Below are positions 10,958 through 19,787 of a DNA stretch of 64,000 bases, piece after piece. The notes under the pieces were generated by a model. The model saw nothing but the letters and a program-made list of their open reading frames with translations. It ran no database searches and was not told the DNA's origin. Position 1 is the first letter of the stretch. Every line of letters starts with the position of its first letter. Source of the stretch: an uncultured Anaerobiospirillum sp. (GTDB taxonomy: Bacteria; Pseudomonadota; Gammaproteobacteria; Enterobacterales; Succinivibrionaceae); the NCBI GenBank assembly GCA_944390115.1, contig CALXOW010000007.1, positions 1 through 64,000 of the forward strand, read 5' to 3'. The position numbers were made by a program, and so were the translations under genes.

Positions 10958-11968
10958 CTAAGCGGCATCGCCCGTTGCGGCGACTTCAGCTTCATCCTGA
11001 GCCCAGACCTGAGCTACGGCTGCTGCTACCTTCTCAGCCGCTGCCTCCTCAGTTGCAGCGCTCGCATCAGACCCAGTAGCTGCAGAGTGCTCAGAAGCAG
11101 CCCCCTGAGCAGGAGCAGCGCTCTCATTCCACCAAGCAGGACGGGTAAAGGCGGCAAACTCTGGTTCTGCTTCCAGCGCCTGCTTAAAGCCTTCAGAGTG
11201 AACCACGCGTAAAAGCAGATTGTGCATTTGCTTATCGCCCTTTTGCACTGCGACCACGTTCTTAATCTCTTCTGCCACCTGCTCGACGCCTAAGGCCTTG
11301 GAATAATCGAACTTAGCGGCGTAGGCATAGTTGCCTGGGATAAAGCCCATGACCACACTATCTAAGGAGCGCGAGATTTGCGCGGCCTCCATAGGCACAA
11401 ACTCCAGCTCGTATGGGTTTTGGTCAATGTCCGCGACGCTGGCTTGGGTCTCGTTATTGACCGTCTTTAAGGTGATAATGCCCAGCTCCTGAGCTAAGCG
11501 CAGAGCACGCGCCAGGTTCACGGCATCATTAGGCAGGCCTACTTGACCACCACGGATTTGCTCCATATCAGCAAGAGCCCCGATCTTATCGGAGAAAACG
11601 CCCATGCCTAAGGTTGGGACATTGGTCACAGCCTCGATCTTAAGGCCCTGGGTTTTGACCAAGTTATCAAGGTAGGCAAAGTGCTGCATTAAGTTGGCAT
11701 CCAAGTTGCCCGACTCTAAGGCGAGGTTGGGCTGGACGTAATCGGTAAAGTCAACCACCTCAACGGTGTAGCCGTCCTTAGCCAGCTCTGGGGCTAAGGC
11801 CTTCTCCACCATCAGGCCATAAGGACCTGGGCACACGCCCACGCGCAGCACCTTGGACGGCTCATTGGCCGCCGTAGCAGCAGTTGCCGCCTTATCCTCG
11901 CCGCAACCGGAGAGAGCCAAAACCGAAGCGCTCAAGAGCGCCGCTAAAGCAAGAGTGGACAACTTCAT
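10958..11968 (-). CDS. metQ: methionine-binding lipoprotein
   Basis: 336 aa. The N-terminus is a lipoprotein signal with lipobox LALSGC (Cys near residue 22), so it is predicted to be a lipid-anchored binding protein. The NlpA/MetQ core is recognisable (RVGVCPGPYGLMVEKALAPEL, VDFTDYVQPNLALESGNLDANLMQHFAYLDN). MetQ proteins are usually about 270 aa; here the C-terminal part is expanded by an Ala/Glu/Ser-rich segment (about residues 282-336). The start at 11968 has GAGGAA upstream; an in-frame extension to 12049 would bury the signal peptide. Confidence 0.9.
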   Translation of the reverse strand: MKLSTLALAALLSASVLALSGCGEDKAATAATAANEPSKVLRVGVCPGPYGLMVEKALAPELAKDGYTVEVVDFTDYVQPNLALESGNLDANLMQHFAYLDNLVKTQGLKIEAVTNVPTLGMGVFSDKIGALADMEQIRGGQVGLPNDAVNLARALRLAQELGIITLKTVNNETQASVADIDQNPYELEFVPMEAAQISRSLDSVVMGFIPGNYAYAAKFDYSKALGVEQVAEEIKNVVAVQKGDKQMHNLLLRVVHSEGFKQALEAEPEFAAFTRPAWWNESAAPAQGAASEHSAATGSDASAATEEAAAEKVAAAVAQVWAQDEAEVAATGDAA

Positions 11969-12213
11969 CACAAAATTCCTCACGCAGCTCACAGCCGTAA
12001 CGCAGCTGTAGATAGTCACAACTCCCGCGCCGCCACCAATGCCAGGCATACGAAGCCACTCTTACCCTGCACAATAAAAAGGGCATAAGAGTCCTAGCCC
12101 AATATTCTTAGGCACCTAGCACAACAAAAAATCAATGGGAAAAAGAGCTTGCCCCCAATGCGGATCAAGCAGGCGGGATAACAGGCTCAAACCAGTCCAA
12201 GAGCTGAGCCCAA

Positions 12214-12230
12214 AGACCTAAACTAGGTCT
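12214..12230. promoter_or_regulatory. inverted repeat, possible operator
   Basis: AGACCTA AAC TAGGTCT, 7-bp arms with a 3-bp centre. The AGAC...GTCT ends recall MetJ met boxes, but the spacing and the interior do not match the tandem 8-bp met box, so the regulator is unknown. Confidence 0.4.
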
Positions 12231-12239
12231 GTGCACAAC

Positions 12240-12261
12240 TTCAGAGGTGGCCACCTCTGAA
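12240..12261. promoter_or_regulatory. perfect 22-bp palindrome
   Basis: A perfectly symmetric 22-bp sequence centred on GGCC (core CAGAGGTGGCCACCTCTG) lies about 270-290 bp before metQ. It has no loop, which fits a dimeric repressor or activator site better than a terminator. Confidence 0.5.
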
Positions 12262-12313
12262 CACAACAGCACCCAGCCTCTTAGGCGGTGCTTGTCGACA
12301 TTTAAGCTAGATT

Positions 12314-12329
12314 TGTGATGTAGATCAAG
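12314..12329. promoter_or_regulatory. CRP/FNR-family-like site
   Basis: TGTGA TGTAGA TCAAG matches the CRP/FNR dyad at most positions and resembles sites at 13538-13553 and 44090-44105 in this window. Confidence 0.35.
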
Positions 12330-12453
12330 TTTTGCCCTATGCCAAGGCACCTCTTAGCCTTAAACATGGCTTTTGCGCCATCATGACGCACACTTTGCCC
12401 ACAAATTGATCTTTTTCGGCCCAAAGCACAAGGCACAGCTCACCAATCGAAGA

Positions 12454-12630
12454 TCAACCTCTATTCGAGGCAGTATTATGCGCAGAGTTATCTAATTTTG
12501 CTTTATTTCTTTTGGCACGGTAGTCACGATAATCTTCCCACATCACTCGTCCCAGCATGAGAAAAAGCAAACCAAATGCAATAAAAAAGACAACACCAAA
12601 TACTATTATAAAAAAGGTCATGTGTGACAT
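12454..12630 (-). CDS. small membrane protein, 58 aa (A+T-rich cassette)
   Basis: An open frame of 59 codons from ATG at 12630 to TGA at 12456-12454, preceded by GGGGG about 4 nt upstream. The N-terminal half is a single hydrophobic helix (TFFIIVFGVVFFIAFGLLFLML), followed by a charged tail (WEDYRDYRAKRNKAK), the usual single-pass small-membrane-protein layout with a positive cytoplasmic end. I recognise no family. It is the last gene of the four-ORF A+T-rich cluster and is visibly poorer in G+C than its surroundings. Confidence 0.55.
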   Translation of the reverse strand: MSHMTFFIIVFGVVFFIAFGLLFLMLGRVMWEDYRDYRAKRNKAKLDNSAHNTASNRG

Positions 12631-12718
12631 ACAACCCCCTTGTTAACAAGTAATTATAAAAGCAATTTACGCTGATTTAGCACCAAGCTCAATTACCTCT
12701 TTTATAAAGACATGCAAC

Positions 12719-12850
12719 TTATGAATTATCATCCCTATCTTTTTTACCAACCCTTCCTAACAAAAAAATACCCCATAAAAACTCAAGCACTCCCAATAAT
12801 ACTGCAAGCACAGCAAGGCCAGATATCAATATAACAATGTAACCCAACAT
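12719..12850 (-). CDS. small membrane protein, 43 aa (A+T-rich cassette)
   Basis: A 44-codon frame from ATG at 12850 to TAA at 12721-12719. GGGAAG lies 7 nt before the ATG. Residues about 4-32 are almost entirely hydrophobic (YIVILISGLAVLAVLLGVLE, then FLWGIFLLG), followed by a short charged tail (RVGKKDRDDNS). Its first 25 bases overlap the 3' end of the preceding 56-aa frame, suggesting translational coupling. No known family; toxin-like, phage-defence-effector-like or regulatory micro-protein roles are possible, none proven. Confidence 0.5.
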   Translation of the reverse strand: MLGYIVILISGLAVLAVLLGVLEFLWGIFLLGRVGKKDRDDNS

Positions 12851-12996
12851 AGTTTATCTTCCCAATAACACCTGTTCTCGACGTCCATACCAGCAATGTC
12901 ATCAAACGATTTAACTTCTATTTTTGTACGCTTATCACAAACAACAACAACAAAAAAATCAGATTTAAACCTAAGAAGTTTTATTAAAATTCTCAT
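12826..12996 (-). CDS. small protein, 56 aa, overlapping both neighbours
   Basis: A 57-codon frame begins with ATG at 12996 inside the end of the 179-aa gene, in the +1 frame, and ends with TGA at 12828-12826 inside the 43-aa gene. AAGAAGAG precedes the start by about 5 nt. The peptide (MRILIKLLRFKSDFFVVVV, then CDKRTKIEVKSFDDIAGMD) has a hydrophobic N-terminal strand and a charged, soluble-looking C-terminal part with two Cys. The overlap at both ends is typical of compact operons or phage-derived gene sets. I recognise no family, and the frame could be coincidental, although its composition looks coding. Confidence 0.45.
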   Translation of the reverse strand: MRILIKLLRFKSDFFVVVVCDKRTKIEVKSFDDIAGMDVENRCYWEDKLCWVTLLY

Positions 12997-13510
12997 TTAA
13001 ACTCTTCTTAAGACTGTTATCAGTTATCAGCAGTTCTTTTTTTTGTATATTTTCTTTTAAAGAATCATCATAATTGTTTAAATTGTCGTTTTTATCTACA
13101 TATTTATCGATAAGCTTTTCTAATTTCAAAAGAACACGGCGAATCCGTAATGTAGCAATTAAAGCAAGTCTGCGGTTTCTTCTGTACTCGATTTCTTGCT
13201 TAACTTTATCACTAGACGACTCAGTTTTATCAGACCTCCAATCATTATCAAGTTCTCTTATGGATCTTATCCATGCATATCCACAGCCCAAAAATATAAG
13301 TCCAAAGAAAAGAATAAAGAAAAGCGCAATAAGGACTTTTATCATATAAATATCATAAAACAAGACATCTCCATATATAATTAGATAAAAAGTTTCAAAA
13401 TTACTCCCAATGTAATCACTAAGTTGTAACATAACAGCAAAAGAACCACCCCCTACAGCTACAGCGGTTGCTGCCATGGCTGTATATGCAGGCGATTGAG
13501 ATTGGCTCAT
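12971..13510 (-). CDS. hypothetical membrane protein, 179 aa (A+T-rich cassette)
   Basis: AGGAG precedes the ATG at 13510. The protein has a Gly/Ala-rich hydrophobic N-terminus (about 9-29), a second hydrophobic stretch near 41-57 and a strong membrane helix at about 58-80 (VLIALFFILFFGLIFLGCGY). A long Lys/Arg/Glu/Asn-rich, helix-prone tail (96-179) follows. Codon use is A+T-rich (AAA, TTT, ATA), unlike the flanking genes. No family is recognised. It heads the four-gene cluster that lies beside a restriction-modification cassette. Confidence 0.7.
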   Translation of the reverse strand: MSQSQSPAYTAMAATAVAVGGGSFAVMLQLSDYIGSNFETFYLIIYGDVLFYDIYMIKVLIALFFILFFGLIFLGCGYAWIRSIRELDNDWRSDKTESSSDKVKQEIEYRRNRRLALIATLRIRRVLLKLEKLIDKYVDKNDNLNNYDDSLKENIQKKELLITDNSLKKSLNENFNKTS

Positions 13511-13537
13511 ATTGATCTCCTGAACTTAAGCACGGCC

Positions 13538-13553
13538 TGTCATAAAGATCAAG
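13538..13553. promoter_or_regulatory. CRP/FNR-family-like site
   Basis: TGTCA TAAAGA TCAAG, 28 bp upstream of the 179-aa gene start, matches the motif seen before metQ and pstS. Together with a TACAAT-like -10 farther upstream it marks the likely control region of the A+T-rich cluster. Confidence 0.3.
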
Positions 13554-13790
13554 TCATTACACCCTAATTGTACCGCATTTGAGATGAGCGCAAGGTAGCA
13601 GTATGGAACCTCAATCTTCAGCCCAAACAACCCTAGCCCGCAGTAAAAAAGTCATGAATGGCAACAGCCCGATTTATTAGCATCCGAGAGCTTAAGATGC
13701 GCTGATCACCAGATCGCCCGTGACCTGTTAGAGCCCCTAGCTCCGCTCAACATCTTAGGTTTTGCGCATAACAGCAGGTAGTTCGGAAGT

Positions 13791-13919: not shown

Positions 13920-14495
13920 TTAGCAGAAGAAGCTGCGCTCGTAGAGGCCAAAGTGGCATTGGCCGATGGTGTTATCGCGAATCTGCGATAAGCCCAGTAA
14001 GACCTTACTCTTAGCTGCGCCCATCTCAACGTAGACTTGGCCGCCGTCCTTGAGCAAGTCCTTAGAGACAATAAGCTCAACCGCAAGCTCCAGCAAATTG
14101 CTGCTAAAAGGCGGATCTAAAAAGATGAGGTCATAGCGTGGCCCTGAAGGCAGGTTTTTGAGAAACGAGAGCGCGTCGGTGCAATGCACGCTAGCACTTG
14201 CCCCGCCTAAGTCCGGTAAGGACTTGACGGTTTTGCTGAGCAAGTCGGCGTTATCGCGATCCTTCTCCACCAAGGTCACCTCGGTCGCACCTCGTGACAG
14301 TGCCTCAAGCCCCAAGGCCCCCGAGCCTGCAAACAAATCGAGCACGGTCGCGCCCACCACCTGCGAGCCCAGCCAATTGAAAACGGTCTCGCGCACGCGC
14401 TCAGTGGTAGGACGCAGGCCCTGTAAATCCATAACTTCGAGGCGGCGTCCCTTAAAGGCACCTGCAATGATGCGCACCTTATTATCGTAGGCCAT
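13920..14495 (-). CDS. rsmD: 16S rRNA (guanine(966)-N2)-methyltransferase
   Basis: 191 aa. Methylates G966 of 16S rRNA in the small subunit using SAM. GAFKGRRLEV and RPTTERVRETVFNWL at the N-terminus are family signatures; VLDLFAGSGALGLEALSRG is the SAM motif I and LIFLDPPF is the catalytic (D/N)PPF motif. GGAGAAATC precedes ATG. It follows the large restriction-modification gene by only 26 bp on the same strand, so it may now be transcribed from the cassette promoter. Confidence 0.93.
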   Translation of the reverse strand: MAYDNKVRIIAGAFKGRRLEVMDLQGLRPTTERVRETVFNWLGSQVVGATVLDLFAGSGALGLEALSRGATEVTLVEKDRDNADLLSKTVKSLPDLGGASASVHCTDALSFLKNLPSGPRYDLIFLDPPFSSNLLELAVELIVSKDLLKDGGQVYVEMGAAKSKVLLGLSQIRDNTIGQCHFGLYERSFFC

Positions 14496-14521: not shown

Positions 14522-17500
14522 TTACATTGGGCTGATGGTCGAGGTGATCTCCTCACACTCTTCCGGCGTGAGGCCATATTTGGCAAAGAGCTGTTGATCA
14601 AGCTGAGCAACCGGCTGCGTCCAGTCGAGGTCAGAGTTAGCGCTAAAGTCTTGCATTGGTACGAAGACAAAATTGCCACGAGAAATGTTGATTGAAGTTA
14701 AGACCTGTAACAGCAAATAACGCACAAAAGTTGTACGTAGATATACACTTAAAGCATCAACTTCCTGTCTTTGCTCAAAACATCCGATTAAAAGATAAGA
14801 ATCAGTGCAAACCTCATTTGGCTCCAATACCTTGATGCTAGATAGTACCTTATATGTACCATCCTTTGATGGTGTTCCAGCACGACCTGTCATGGTTTTA
14901 GCAAATAATAATTTATAAGAGCGCGTGTATGCATTGGAAATAAGATTGTCAGATGGAGCAATATAAGATACTCCATCAGATGAGTGTAATTTTAACTTTT
15001 CAGGATCCGGAGTGGTCGAGCCTCGTTGTTTGGAATCAATGCCAAAAGGATTACGGGCCGAAACTATGGTCGATAAGCTCTCTGCTTTATTGAAAGTTAC
15101 CTTATGCAAAATACTGCAAGCAGTGTTACTACGAATAAATACGCCATACTGAGCAAACTCATCGAGCGATCGAGACATTGTTTCACCATGACCATTACTC
15201 ATATTAGTTACGAGGCATGGTCCATTATGCCTAGTGTCCCATAGGAAATAATTAACACCGCCAGCAATGTTTGTGTTGTCAAAGCAGTCATTTGCATTGA
15301 TAAATTCGACAATTATGCGCATGTGATGATCATGAATCATTTCCTCACGGAAATCATCAAGCCCCTTACCTCCTGCAAACCAACGCGATGGTGTGATAAA
15401 TGAGATAAATTGAGGATCTAACTTCTTAGCGCTACGGACAAAGTGGTGATACAAAGGCATAGCACTACTACCTTTGGCTCCACCATCTAATACTTGGTAA
15501 GGCGGGTTGCCGACGATGGCATCAAACTTCATTGATGGGTTACTCTGGTTAGGCCACAGGTTTGGATTTTTGGCAATTAAGTCTTTGATTGCGCTTGGGT
15601 TGGTGCTGATACGATCAATCAGCTGGTCGATGTAGCAAGTGTTGATTGGAACCTCACGGAAGCCCACCAAGGTACGCTCGGTGATTGAGCGCGCCATCGG
15701 TGACTTGCAGATCACAAAGATGTTGCGCTTGAGCACGTCGTCCCAGATCTTGCGCTGCTGGGCGCGAGTGAGCAGGTCAAGCTTATTGCCGTAAGTGTCC
15801 AGGTACAGGCGCACCAAGGTGTAGGTCAGGTAAAGCGGATAAAGGCCGCTCTTGGAATTGATCTCCAAGAGCTTGGTCTTAGGTCTGAAGACCTGCTCGG
15901 TGATATCCGAGTGCTCGACTAAGCGCGGTTCAGTGAGCTCTTGCGTAAAGTCATGGTCAAAGAAGCAATAACCACCGATAGTGGAGCTCAGGTGCATATT
16001 GACCACACGCCACGGGGTGAGCACCGTCTCTTTGTCCGGACTACGGAAATTAGCAAAGATGGAGCTAATGAGCTTGATGCGCTCTTCGATCGCCATATCA
16101 TCGGCGGCACGCGCCAGCGCGCGAATGCGCTTACCTGCGGCGGTAAATATGTCCGGGTCGTAGTACTTGATAATCCGGGCAAAGATCTCCTTGGTAACAC
16201 CTAGCGGCATAAATTCAGCCCACGACACATCGTCCACAAGCTCGCTAAAGTTCTCAATGGTCAGCTCTTCGTCTTCGTTGTTGATAGTGGCACCGTAGAT
16301 CATGAGAGGCATGCGAATCGAAATACCACGCAAAATCGAGATCGCGTTTTCGCGTACCTTGGCCTTTTCCTGCAGCTCTTTGAGTTTGGCCTTCTCTTCC
16401 TCGGTACGTTCCCTGGTCGGTCTTTTCTTGATCTGTTCAAGCTGTTCGTGCTCTTCGTCGGTTAGACCTTGCTGGTTGAGGTCGATCTTATCGGTGCTGC
16501 CTAAGGCCTTGGTTTGGCCGATGATGTCTTTGAGCTGTTCAAATTGAGCTAAATCAATTTCATCTAGCTTGAGGAGCTTGTCGTTGTAGAGGTGCACATC
16601 ATCAAAGCCATGAGACACCACCTGCTCGACATAAACGCGTTTGATTTGCTCCATGACTTGTCCCACCTTAACTTCCTGCATGGTGGAGCCGTCGATGGAA
16701 ATAATTGGGCAGAAATTGATGAACTCACCTAACGCGGCGCGGGCGCTGTCCTTCCCTGAGGCATCAGGGCGCTTGGACACACCAAAGGTTTGCGCAATTA
16801 CCTTTAAAGCACGATCGGGGGCAAAGTCAAAGGCATAGCACTGTTCCTTGACCTTACCTGCAATGGTCGCCGGGCTTTGCACGCGGAAAATGGTTTGCAG
16901 ATAGCTTGAGGCCGTGCTTTGGTAAGAGCCTGCAAGCATTAAGACACCGGTCCAGACCTTAACCGTGACGCCCGTGGTCAGACGACCGCAGGAAATGGTG
17001 ATGGTGCGGCTTTCCTCGGGTGCAGGACCAATGGCCTTGTTTACGGCGTCCAAAGCTTCAGTGGCCCCTAGTGAGCTTGCGTTTTCGTCGTAATCGCCCG
17101 CCCCCGCCACATTGACAATCTCAAAATTGCTAAAGACCGGATGTTGTTTTAAGAGCGCACTTAAGGCCTTGGCTGCCTTGACTCCAGGTACCACCCACAA
17201 GGTGTGGCGGAAGATGTCCCGAAAGCCTTGGTTGGAAAAAGGGTAATTGTTCTCACTAGGCTTGGTTAACAGGTCGAGAAAGGCTTTGACGTCCCTTTCA
17301 TGAGCGAACTGTTCTGTTTTCGAGTCGACCTTAAAGAACTCGTTGAAGTTGAAGGCGAACTCACTGTGGGCGTACTCATCAAAGAGCTTACCTAAGTTGT
17401 AGGTGTAGAGGTTGAGCTGGGGCAAGCCGGAGTAAGGGTTAGGATCGCCTTGGTGAATCGCATCCCAATCACGCTTGGCCTTTTGCTCTGAGACATAATC

Positions 17501-18547
17501 CCAGGTATAAACTTCGTCTTGCTTGAAGCCATTGAGCAAATTAAATGGGGTACCTGAGAGATAGAGCACCTTGGTGTTCTCGTGCAAAAGCTCCTTGAGC
17601 ACGGACTGGCCAAGCTGAGTTTGGGTACCTTCATGAGCCTCATCGATGATGACCAAATCCCAAGGCAGGGCAAACACATCCTCATTCTTAACGAAATCAC
17701 CGCCCACCTTGCTGGAGCCGCGCAGATCTTGAAGCGAGGCAAAGTACACGTAGTGATCTTTCTGACCAAATTGAGAGTGCGCGTTACACTCAAGCACCCC
17801 GAGACTCTCGCCTCGATCTTTGGAGCTGTAAGCAAACTGTGGGCTATCCCAAAAGATTTTGTGGAAGTCCTCAAACCAGCTCTCGTTGACCACCGGGCGA
17901 TGAGTAATGATGATAGTACGGCGTAAATCCAGCTTCTTGACTACCTGCAGTGCGCTCAATGTCTTGCCAAAACGCATTTTGGCATTCCACAGCATCTGTG
18001 CCTTGCCCTTCTTGAACTGCTTGCAGGTAAGGTCAATGGCCTCTTTTTGCTCCGGGCGAAATTGAATCGGCGCAAATTCCGTGTTACTTTCAGCAGCGCT
18101 GAGCGCATTGGAACCTTCTTTAACCGCTCTGATCGCCTGTTTTACAGTGTCTAAGTCACAGACAAACCACTCATTGGCTTTGTTCTTGAGATCAAACTCC
18201 TTGCGCTTAATGCCCGAGCGCAATAGCACTTGATGGACATCGTGGTCACTAAAGGAATTAACCTGGTAGTTAAACGAACGTTGTTGCTTGGGGTCAGGCA
18301 CCTTGGTAAAGGTTTGCGCTAACTCAGTGTGCAGCAGCTCATAATCGATAGCCGCCGCTTGAGTGTATTGGGCAATGCGCTTGTGGGCAGCCTGATTGAG
18401 CTCAGGACAATTAGGGGGCAAAGAATTGAAGTCTTGGCAGGCACAGCTGGTTTCACCGATTTTCAGGCAGCCCGCATGCGCCGCATCATTAATGCGGAAT
18501 ACATAGATGACCTTAGCATTGAATGCAAAAGCAAATCCTGGAGTCAT
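14522..18547 (-). CDS. GIY-YIG-like / SF2 helicase / adenine methylase fusion (restriction-modification type)
   Basis: 1341 aa. Residues about 10-110 (VIYVFRINDAAHAGCLKIGE) resemble a T5orf172/GIY-YIG-type nuclease domain. An SF2 helicase follows, with a Walker A-like MRFGKTLS near 192, IDEAH near 300 and LYLSGTP after it. A charged coiled-coil-like stretch lies near 690-750. A DNA N6-adenine methylase-like module has a degenerate motif I (KLLEINSKSGLYPLY) and motif IV NPPY near 1013, then a probable target-recognition region whose codons are more A+T-rich. The architecture resembles single-chain restriction-modification enzymes such as type ISP, but with a GIY-YIG-like rather than Mrr-like nuclease. 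AAGG lies about 9 nt before the start. Defence function is inferred. Confidence 0.75.
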   Translation of the reverse strand: MTPGFAFAFNAKVIYVFRINDAAHAGCLKIGETSCACQDFNSLPPNCPELNQAAHKRIAQYTQAAAIDYELLHTELAQTFTKVPDPKQQRSFNYQVNSFSDHDVHQVLLRSGIKRKEFDLKNKANEWFVCDLDTVKQAIRAVKEGSNALSAAESNTEFAPIQFRPEQKEAIDLTCKQFKKGKAQMLWNAKMRFGKTLSALQVVKKLDLRRTIIITHRPVVNESWFEDFHKIFWDSPQFAYSSKDRGESLGVLECNAHSQFGQKDHYVYFASLQDLRGSSKVGGDFVKNEDVFALPWDLVIIDEAHEGTQTQLGQSVLKELLHENTKVLYLSGTPFNLLNGFKQDEVYTWDYVSEQKAKRDWDAIHQGDPNPYSGLPQLNLYTYNLGKLFDEYAHSEFAFNFNEFFKVDSKTEQFAHERDVKAFLDLLTKPSENNYPFSNQGFRDIFRHTLWVVPGVKAAKALSALLKQHPVFSNFEIVNVAGAGDYDENASSLGATEALDAVNKAIGPAPEESRTITISCGRLTTGVTVKVWTGVLMLAGSYQSTASSYLQTIFRVQSPATIAGKVKEQCYAFDFAPDRALKVIAQTFGVSKRPDASGKDSARAALGEFINFCPIISIDGSTMQEVKVGQVMEQIKRVYVEQVVSHGFDDVHLYNDKLLKLDEIDLAQFEQLKDIIGQTKALGSTDKIDLNQQGLTDEEHEQLEQIKKRPTRERTEEEKAKLKELQEKAKVRENAISILRGISIRMPLMIYGATINNEDEELTIENFSELVDDVSWAEFMPLGVTKEIFARIIKYYDPDIFTAAGKRIRALARAADDMAIEERIKLISSIFANFRSPDKETVLTPWRVVNMHLSSTIGGYCFFDHDFTQELTEPRLVEHSDITEQVFRPKTKLLEINSKSGLYPLYLTYTLVRLYLDTYGNKLDLLTRAQQRKIWDDVLKRNIFVICKSPMARSITERTLVGFREVPINTCYIDQLIDRISTNPSAIKDLIAKNPNLWPNQSNPSMKFDAIVGNPPYQVLDGGAKGSSAMPLYHHFVRSAKKLDPQFISFITPSRWFAGGKGLDDFREEMIHDHHMRIIVEFINANDCFDNTNIAGGVNYFLWDTRHNGPCLVTNMSNGHGETMSRSLDEFAQYGVFIRSNTACSILHKVTFNKAESLSTIVSARNPFGIDSKQRGSTTPDPEKLKLHSSDGVSYIAPSDNLISNAYTRSYKLLFAKTMTGRAGTPSKDGTYKVLSSIKVLEPNEVCTDSYLLIGCFEQRQEVDALSVYLRTTFVRYLLLQVLTSINISRGNFVFVPMQDFSANSDLDWTQPVAQLDQQLFAKYGLTPEECEEITSTISPM

Positions 18548-18676: not shown

Positions 18677-19678
18677 TTAGAACAAGTCCACAAAGCGGAC
18701 AATTTTGCCTAAGGTACCCCGTTCCTGTTTGGTCCAGTCCTTGATCAAGCAGTAAGTGCCGTTGTGCTCAGAGTTAAGCAGCTCCTCGCGCTGACAGCCG
18801 GGGCAGAGCTCCTCGTAGGTCTCAAGACCAAAGAGCGTGTTGTCATAGGTGATCTTATTTTCGCAGGAATTTGGGATCACGCCTCTGAGGCCATCCATCT
18901 GCCACAGATTCCACGAGATGCTCTCCGCGATCGCAAGAACTGCTGTGAGATCTGGCAGCTCATGCCAACGTTCCTGATAGAACTCGCCGAAGGTAAAGAG
19001 CAGATTTTCACGAGCTAACAGCAGGCTATCACCCTGCCACTCAAAGCCATAGACGCTGCAAAAGGCAATTTGCGCCCACTCAAGCCATTCCTCAGGCGTC
19101 TTCGTATTCTCACTGACCACACGCAACTTGCGATCAAGTAAACCTATACGATCTTCTACTGGGATAGTTTTACCAATAATCATATCGTAGCGACTTACTA
19201 GGTAAGGAGCCTCGCCACATGTAATCTCCAAGCGAATAGCCTTTACATAGTCTTGCCAAGTTTTGCCTTGCGGAAAGATAATTGGTTCATAATTAGTCTG
19301 CCAGCTCTTGCCATATGCGCAGTTGAAGACATCAGGACGGCCAAACCACTCAGCATCGACCAAATTGTTTTGTTGATTACACAACCATGCCGGACTATAG
19401 ACTTCAGCCATAATGCGACTGCGTTTACTTTGCTCTTCTTGGTCTTTAAGCACCCGAGGGCGAATCACTTGGCCATTGTTGCCAGTGATGAGCTCGGGAG
19501 TAATAGGCTGATCATAGGCAAATTTAGGCCCGAGCATCTCATAGTCCGAAGTCGCCCAAAAGATATTCTGGGGCTTACTGCGGCTGTGCAAGGTCTTGGT
19601 CTGGTCAATAAGCAAAAGCGCCAGCAACTGCGGCGATAGGTGCTGTACGCAGTTTTCGAGCACGTCGATGTCACTCAT
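18677..19678 (-). CDS. partner protein of the restriction-modification-like cassette, 333 aa
   Basis: It lies 129 bp upstream of the fusion gene on the same strand. It resembles the roughly 300-aa proteins often annotated restriction endonuclease subunit M found beside helicase-methylase genes. Conserved-looking stretches are YSPAWLCNQQNN, DAEWFGRPDVFN, IRLEITCGEAPYLVSRYD and the terminal Cys pair CPGC. No catalytic motif is certain. The start at 19678 has GAGGAATCACT before ATG; the longer frame to 19744 lacks a site. A role as specificity or accessory subunit is inferred from position. Confidence 0.6.
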   Translation of the reverse strand: MSDIDVLENCVQHLSPQLLALLLIDQTKTLHSRSKPQNIFWATSDYEMLGPKFAYDQPITPELITGNNGQVIRPRVLKDQEEQSKRSRIMAEVYSPAWLCNQQNNLVDAEWFGRPDVFNCAYGKSWQTNYEPIIFPQGKTWQDYVKAIRLEITCGEAPYLVSRYDMIIGKTIPVEDRIGLLDRKLRVVSENTKTPEEWLEWAQIAFCSVYGFEWQGDSLLLARENLLFTFGEFYQERWHELPDLTAVLAIAESISWNLWQMDGLRGVIPNSCENKITYDNTLFGLETYEELCPGCQREELLNSEHNGTYCLIKDWTKQERGTLGKIVRFVDLF

Positions 19679-19787
19679 AGTGATTCCTCGAGATATGGGA
19701 AAGCGCCGTAGGCGGCTCTCAACTATGATGTGATCAAGCGGCATGCCACCACAAAGCGGTTTGGCCCTTGTTCGGGCTCAGTTAGGT

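Follow-up and report, generated by a model that had tools for sequence, protein, structure and literature searches.

A strain-variable family of A+T-rich membrane-protein cassettes in two Anaerobiospirillum genomes

A short A+T-rich block in the genome analysed here (G000) belongs to a cassette family that is real, strain-variable and absent from the libraries that we searched. The family comprises five copies at two chromosomal sites, one beside rsmD and the other between a dnaC-like gene and ruvX, in two close genomes, G000 and an Anaerobiospirillum MAG (G006). At the dnaC-like/ruvX site, the two genomes are alike in the leader and on the ruvX side, but not in the cassette body. The set is a lineage-restricted, strain-variable orphan membrane module, partly decayed. 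As to its role, we prefer, with a probability of roughly 0.3, a membrane-acting conflict module in which cationic single-helix peptides may be controlled by a large protein.

The block and its reading frames

The window, that is the whole stretch of 64,000 nucleotides analysed, carries the block between metQ and rsmD. The names metI, ABC gene, metQ and ruvX are given by resemblance; of the genes around the cassettes, the rsmD-type gene, the restriction genes and a dnaC-like fragment were compared with the libraries. The features are:

10958-11974, minus strand: metQ
12454-12630, minus strand: 58-aa gene (ATG frame)
12719-12850, minus strand: 43-aa gene (ATG frame)
12826-12996, minus strand: 56-aa frame (ATG frame)
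12971-13510, minus strand: 179-aa large gene (ATG frame)
13550..13579, minus strand: conserved leader core AATGCGGTACAATTAGGGTGTAATGACTTG, with a -10-like TACAAT
13920-14495, minus strand: rsmD (Pfam Cons_hypoth95)
14522-18547: type IIG-like restriction enzyme-methyltransferase (Pfam Eco57I, 2.2e-29, and ResIII, 4.7e-14; PADLOC type IIG, 8.6e-70)
18677-19744: type II methyltransferase (PADLOC, 3.3e-110)

The four minus-strand frames described in the first-pass annotation are present. The 56-aa frame overlaps both of its neighbours, sharing 26 nt with the 179-aa frame and 25 nt with the 43-aa frame. Ribosome-site-like sequences, said to precede all four, were judged by eye to be clear before the 179-aa frame (GGAG) and the 58-aa frame (GGGGG) and fair before the 43-aa frame, but poor before the 56-aa frame. 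The GC content of the 1-kb bin 12501-13500 is 0.332, versus about 0.54 in the surrounding window, and that of the individual frames is 0.30-0.37, versus 0.53-0.56 for metI, the ABC gene, metQ and rsmD. Third-position GC is likewise low (0.26, 0.25, 0.30 and 0.32 for the 179-, 56-, 43- and 58-aa frames, versus 0.61-0.68 for the same four neighbours), with intermediate values of 0.56-0.57 in the restriction-modification genes. The claim that composition and codon use are unlike those of the flanks is thus borne out for GC and for third-position GC, the codon measure examined. Upstream of metQ, a 29-nt stretch (12302-12330) is 72% identical to the large-gene leader (13526-13554); it includes TTGATCTACATCAC, which resembles an FNR box.

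Relatives of three of the frames occur elsewhere in G000. The N-terminal part of the 179-aa protein is matched at C19:47342 (58% identity, E 1.2e-14) and its tail at C46:77 (40% identity, E 5.4e-12). Behind this tail, contig C46 encodes a 43-aa protein that is 44% identical to the one in the window, two relatives of the 58-aa protein (one of 39 aa, the other of 47 or 48 aa according to the start chosen) and another copy of the 43-aa type that is out of frame, the small-gene pair being duplicated within the contig (72% over 149 nt). Relatives of the 43- and 58-aa proteins are therefore kept behind a large-gene relative, the point on which the first-pass annotation had staked its case.

Constraint was assessed by comparing the amino-acid identity observed with that left by the same number of random base changes, in six comparisons of 20,000 simulations each. 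The large gene showed 32 identical residues of 54 at its N-terminus, versus 21.3 expected, with none of the simulations as high, and 17 of 28 in its tail, versus 11.4 expected (P = 0.0023). The 43-aa pair shared 18 of 42 residues, versus 9.8 expected (P = 0.00025). One antisense frame of this pair is likewise identical at 17 of 43 residues, so that part of the signal comes from composition. For the 58-aa protein, an excess was found against the 39-aa paralogue (11/28 versus 6.4 expected, P = 0.006), and none against the 47/48-aa paralogue (10/26 versus 8.8, P = 0.35) or between the two paralogues (11/25 versus 9.9, P = 0.36). Estimates of dN and dS were 0.59 and 2.5, and 0.52 and 3.2, with dS saturated. 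The large and 43-aa genes are thus clearly under constraint; for the 58-aa gene the case is fair, two of the three comparisons in its group being non-significant.

The evidence for the 56-aa frame is of another kind. Among 57 genomes of the family it matched only itself, a 96% identical copy in G006 and two sequences at E 0.07-0.08, and it is absent between the large and 43-aa genes of G000:C46. Between G000 and G006 it shows one synonymous and two non-synonymous codon changes, and 16% of 2000 random sequences with its composition yielded an ATG frame of 56 aa or longer on the strand concerned. It is probably not a gene, or is private to this copy. The proposed unit of four genes, mostly for membrane proteins, stands for the 179-, 43- and 58-aa proteins, the 56-aa frame being without independent support. 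That the whole block consists of chance frames in an A+T-rich non-coding stretch is very improbable: such an origin is likely for the 56-aa frame, and would suit the two comparisons within the 58-aa group that were no better than chance, but the other three genes have paralogues, and identity is in excess in the large gene, the 43-aa gene and one of the 58-aa comparisons.

Five cassettes at two chromosomal sites

The rsmD site of G006 carries the same cassette as the window. The large genes differ by 4 bases and one indel, all in the last part, the 43-aa gene is unchanged, and the 58-aa gene differs by one synonymous base. The indel lies in an A-tract towards the 3' end of the gene: the window has A8 and G006 has A9, which alters the last residues and shortens the protein from 179 to 163 aa. 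Programmed frameshifting at this tract was also considered. This copy is uninformative on recent transfer, since the two genomes are no more alike in the cassette than in the DNA around it, or only slightly so. Within rsmD, a local patch of 85.6% identity (window 14001-14250) adjoins DNA that is 99-100% identical; over the whole gene, 29 codons differ synonymously and 4 non-synonymously. Below the cassette, the spacer (window 12001-12500) drops to 86-90%. Such a mosaic suggests recombination near the cassette.

The dnaC-like/ruvX site of G006 holds two cassettes. In the first, the large gene encodes 172 aa and the small protein has 55 aa; in the other, a frameshift divides the large gene into parts of 82 and 108 aa, and the small protein has 50 aa. 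The DNA between them repeats the end of the dnaC-like gene, so that a segment was probably duplicated; the best NCBIfam match of a dnaC-like fragment (E 2.9e-9) is under its curated cut-off. Between the first cassette and the dnaC-like fragment (L012:6125-6239) there is a palindrome of about 115 nt whose 27-nt inverted repeats are perfect, resembling a miniature transposable element. As each of these cassettes has one small protein only, 9-12% identical to the 43-aa protein of the window, the 43/58 pair is not universal.

In G000, the same site is split over two contig ends. Contig C19 ends after the dnaC-like gene and the start of a cassette, and C46 starts with a cassette tail and runs into ruvX; a further inverted repeat, recognised by eye at both ends, leads us to take them as neighbours. 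Inverted repeats also flank, as read by eye, a stretch of about 290 nt that breaks up the large gene on C19 (L002:1674-1966, approximate). A second gene of the 43-aa type, at L010:981-1115, is out of frame near a CT repeat.

Three frame changes, in this 43-aa-type gene, in the A-tract of G006 and in the split large gene of G006, are at or near simple repeats as judged by eye, and could reflect decay, assembly error or phase variation. Altogether, the large gene is altered in three of the five cassettes (one interrupted by inserts, one split by a frameshift and one with a changed C-terminus); in addition, one of the small genes is out of frame. This suggests that the modules may be dispensable or decaying.

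The block had also been described as lying beside a restriction-modification cassette. These genes are indeed nearby, with rsmD standing in between, and they are present at the rsmD site in both G000 and G006. The linkage is not general: apart from one match at E 0.037, neither restriction-modification protein of the window has a relative in the stretches read at the dnaC-like/ruvX site (L009, L010 and L012; 7-8 kb each). In another genome of the comparison, G009, a 45% identical relative of the restriction enzyme-methyltransferase lies beside rsmD (L032, G009:C139:1-2758), which may mark this site out as a hotspot for genes of this kind. The low-GC stretch beside rsmD in which a G009 contig ends was considered as another version of the cassette and set aside as a dispersed repeat, because part of it matches two unrelated spots in G000 and G006.

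A common leader, differing bodies and empty sites

Upstream of each large gene lies a 30-nt leader core. A search for it with a degenerate 30-mer written from these same copies, allowing up to 3 mismatches, returned five places in 11 genomes of the genus, one per cassette and nowhere else; the reversed control returned 0. The cores are 87-100% identical in pairs. Upstream of the core, the dnaC-like/ruvX cassettes are 85-92% identical to each other (n = 3), and the DNA just upstream of the core in the window is unlike that of the other cassettes (53-56%). In the pairs that are 85-92% identical upstream of the core, the bodies drop to 41-51%. From 100 nt downstream of the core start, identity is 41-56% in all six pairs of the four different cassettes, a range read with no baseline set for unrelated A+T-rich DNA. 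Short body matches do exist, such as 71% over 121 nt in the tail between the window and C46.

The DNA around the dnaC-like/ruvX site is closely alike in the two genomes. On the ruvX side it is 96-98% identical; on the dnaC side, the G006 fragment and the DNA downstream of it are 92% identical to G000 over 784 nt (99% as protein). The cassette part of C46 gave no DNA match to this site in G006 except for 48 nt at the start of ruvX.

The leader core is probably a promoter and transcript start, and the cassette genes would then form one transcript. A simple promoter scan did not pick the core, and found 2 promoter-like sites versus 4.2 expected. The core was also considered as the native promoter of ruvX; this was rejected, as no relative carries it and it was not seen in the seven spacers inspected.

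Six of the eight other genus genomes with ruvX have the end of the dnaC-like gene upstream, at a distance of 166-462 nt (of the remaining two, one is without a dnaC-like match and one has too short a contig). These spacers are too short for the large gene, and their GC content is 0.53-0.67, except in G004 (0.38; no frame of 30 aa). Single hydrophobic frames in the spacers of G003 (44 aa) and G001 (34 aa) were counted as chance, and tblastn with the four window proteins gave no match at these loci. The rsmD site gives a similar picture: eight other genomes have rsmD, and in six of them about 1.5 kb of downstream sequence contains no match to the cassette proteins, the contigs of the other two being too short.

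Wider searches gave the same distribution. A scan of genome contigs with the single 179-aa protein, which detects close relatives only, found one relative, in the uncultured Anaerobiospirillum sp. MAG BRZ_KP__bin38, taken to be the same genome as G006. Among the 11 genomes of the genus, this protein matched three at E 1, convincingly only G000 and G006 (third match, E 0.43). Anaerobiospirillum is a genus within the Succinivibrionaceae, and in the 57 genomes of that family the profiles of the 179-, 43- and 58-aa proteins matched 7, 10 and 6 genomes at E 0.1, with only G000 and G006 below 0.005 for the first and below 0.001 for the other two. In 395 genomes of the order, the large-protein profile had three matches at E 0.01, one in G000 and two at 0.003-0.004; G006 was not among the matches listed. 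No cassette relative was found in the plasmids (the 56-aa frame aside) or E. coli genomes searched. Further weak whole-genome matches occur, for example in G053, G023 and G392. Neither G039:C54, where 43-aa-like and 58-aa-like matches lie about 600 bases apart, nor a weak match at G009:C208 proved on inspection to be a cassette, and for a weak match in G010 the larger frames within the surrounding 10 kb show nothing similar. The cassette is thus restricted, within the set of genomes examined, to the G000 and G006 pair. The unit had been called foreign-looking, and its foreign composition and patchy distribution among genus genomes agree with this.

Predicted membrane proteins and possible roles

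Hydropathy (Kyte-Doolittle, 19-residue window, cut-off 1.6) predicts a single helix for the 43-aa and for the 58-aa protein, and no helix for the 56-aa frame. In the 179-aa protein, one hydrophobic run exceeds the cut-off (residues 43-84); a weaker first helix, placed at about residues 10-32, is under it, the matching region of the 172-aa paralogue being above. The 179-aa protein probably has two membrane helices with an acidic loop between them and a charged tail, the net charge being -3 over residues 33-57 (loop) and +5 over residues 85-130 (tail). The tails of the small proteins are all net positive: +1 in both proteins of the 43-aa type; +4 in the 58-aa protein of the window, with +4 and +3 in the others of its type; and +5 and +1 in the G006 proteins at the dnaC-like/ruvX site. 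With topology assigned by the positive-inside rule, hydropathy and charge point to a helical hairpin for the large protein, its acidic loop outside and its positive tail cytoplasmic, and to single-pass small proteins, N-out and C-in, with cationic tails.

Searches of profile libraries gave no family that would name a function, and the defence, toxin or immunity role suggested in the first-pass annotation is neither demonstrated nor refuted by them. Neither the four frames nor their paralogues matched Pfam or NCBIfam at the curated cut-off (best Pfam match, the 58-aa protein to EI24, E 0.0045, 17.6 bits versus a cut-off of 32), and none of the four frames matched PADLOC-DB 2.0.0 at E 1. In PHROGs nothing was significant (best E 0.015, and 0.02 for the paralogues); the sub-threshold resemblances were to phrog_944, 'membrane protein' (E 0.015 and 0.056), and to phrog_33766, SieB (E 0.33). 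We treated all such sub-threshold matches of the frames and paralogues as noise. The large-protein profile matched no PDB chain at E 1, and Rfam gave nothing above the gathering score, with one chance-level match (E 2.5). Narrow literature searches likewise found nothing, and absence from print is claimed only within these.

One possibility is a phage-derived remnant, a lysis or superinfection-exclusion set left at two chromosomal sites. The cassette products share with phage membrane and superinfection-exclusion proteins (phrog_944; phrog_33766, SieB) their nature as small membrane proteins and a resemblance below threshold, but differ in having no significant match or phage homologue found. 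As the 179-, 58- and 43-aa proteins are unmatched in phage records, and the large-gene profile, the leader core and the 58- and 56-aa proteins are unmatched in viral contigs, we consider such an origin rather improbable.

Less probable still is that the cassettes are type I toxin-antitoxin repeats whose small proteins would be toxins under the control of antisense RNA. The repeated small-gene pair could be accommodated in this way, as could size, single helix and cationic tail; against it, promoter-like sites are not above chance, no Rfam match exceeds the gathering score, and there is a large partner gene, which to our knowledge type I systems lack. Membrane type I toxins are described in PMC8309996 as hydrophobic proteins of less than 60 aa with one helix and cationic C-terminal residues, and DinQ is reported to depolarise the membrane (PMC3567139). 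Size, hydrophobicity, single helix and cationic end are features that the 43- and 58-aa proteins and their paralogues share with DinQ (PMC3567139) and with LdrD, Fst and SprG1 (PMC8309996), the tail of the 43-aa type being only +1. Unlike membrane type I toxins, the small genes of the cassette stand behind a larger membrane-protein gene, and there is neither a sign of antisense RNA in Rfam and the promoter scan nor a sequence match.

A strain-variable A+T-rich orphan set with no part in conflict, for example one serving in envelope modulation or a selfish, recently acquired set now decaying, is at least as likely as a conflict module. ORFans tend to be A+T-rich and short. PMC2275313 presents them as a class of genes that strains gain and lose and that is likely to persist, and the cassette genes are like the ORFans of that account in being short, narrowly distributed and of foreign composition. 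Unlike a lone ORFan gene, the cassette is a multi-copy family with a common leader and differing bodies. Low GC, short genes, the lack of a convincing homologue outside the two genomes, the alteration of three of the five large genes, and the existence of such a strain-gained and strain-lost class would all suit a set of this kind, which sits less easily with the kept leader core, the duplicated small pair and three genes having more identity than chance.

The conflict module that we prefer would work as follows. The small proteins would depolarise or permeabilise the inner membrane, the large protein would restrain or trigger them, and the cassette would serve in conflict with phages or rival strains. 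Such conflict would explain the turnover of cassettes, and is suggested by the way in which bodies are exchanged while the leader is kept. As far as can be judged from the DNA alone, this role may be supported by the paralogues of three genes in their own genome, the excess identity, the duplicated small pair, the cassette-only leader, body turnover beside a closely alike ruvX side, the empty sites in relatives and the features that the small proteins share with membrane type I toxins; against it are the lack of a function-naming family match or of a recognised toxin, defence or phage relative, the failure of the promoter scan to detect the leader, the lack of any hint of antisense RNA, the damaged copies, the antisense-frame identity of the 43-aa pair and the fact that the 43/58 pair is not universal. 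A fuller version is unlikely: an undescribed, polymorphic membrane-conflict module of the Succinivibrionaceae, in which a hairpin protein controls a pore-like pair of single-helix peptides, bodies are exchanged behind a fixed leader, and sister strains differ at the same place.

If the proposed role is true, strains would be exchanging tiny membrane proteins that are unlisted in the defence and family catalogues searched, their genes being very short and of narrow distribution. Since the leader core is fixed, it provides a handle for finding further versions in unannotated genomes.
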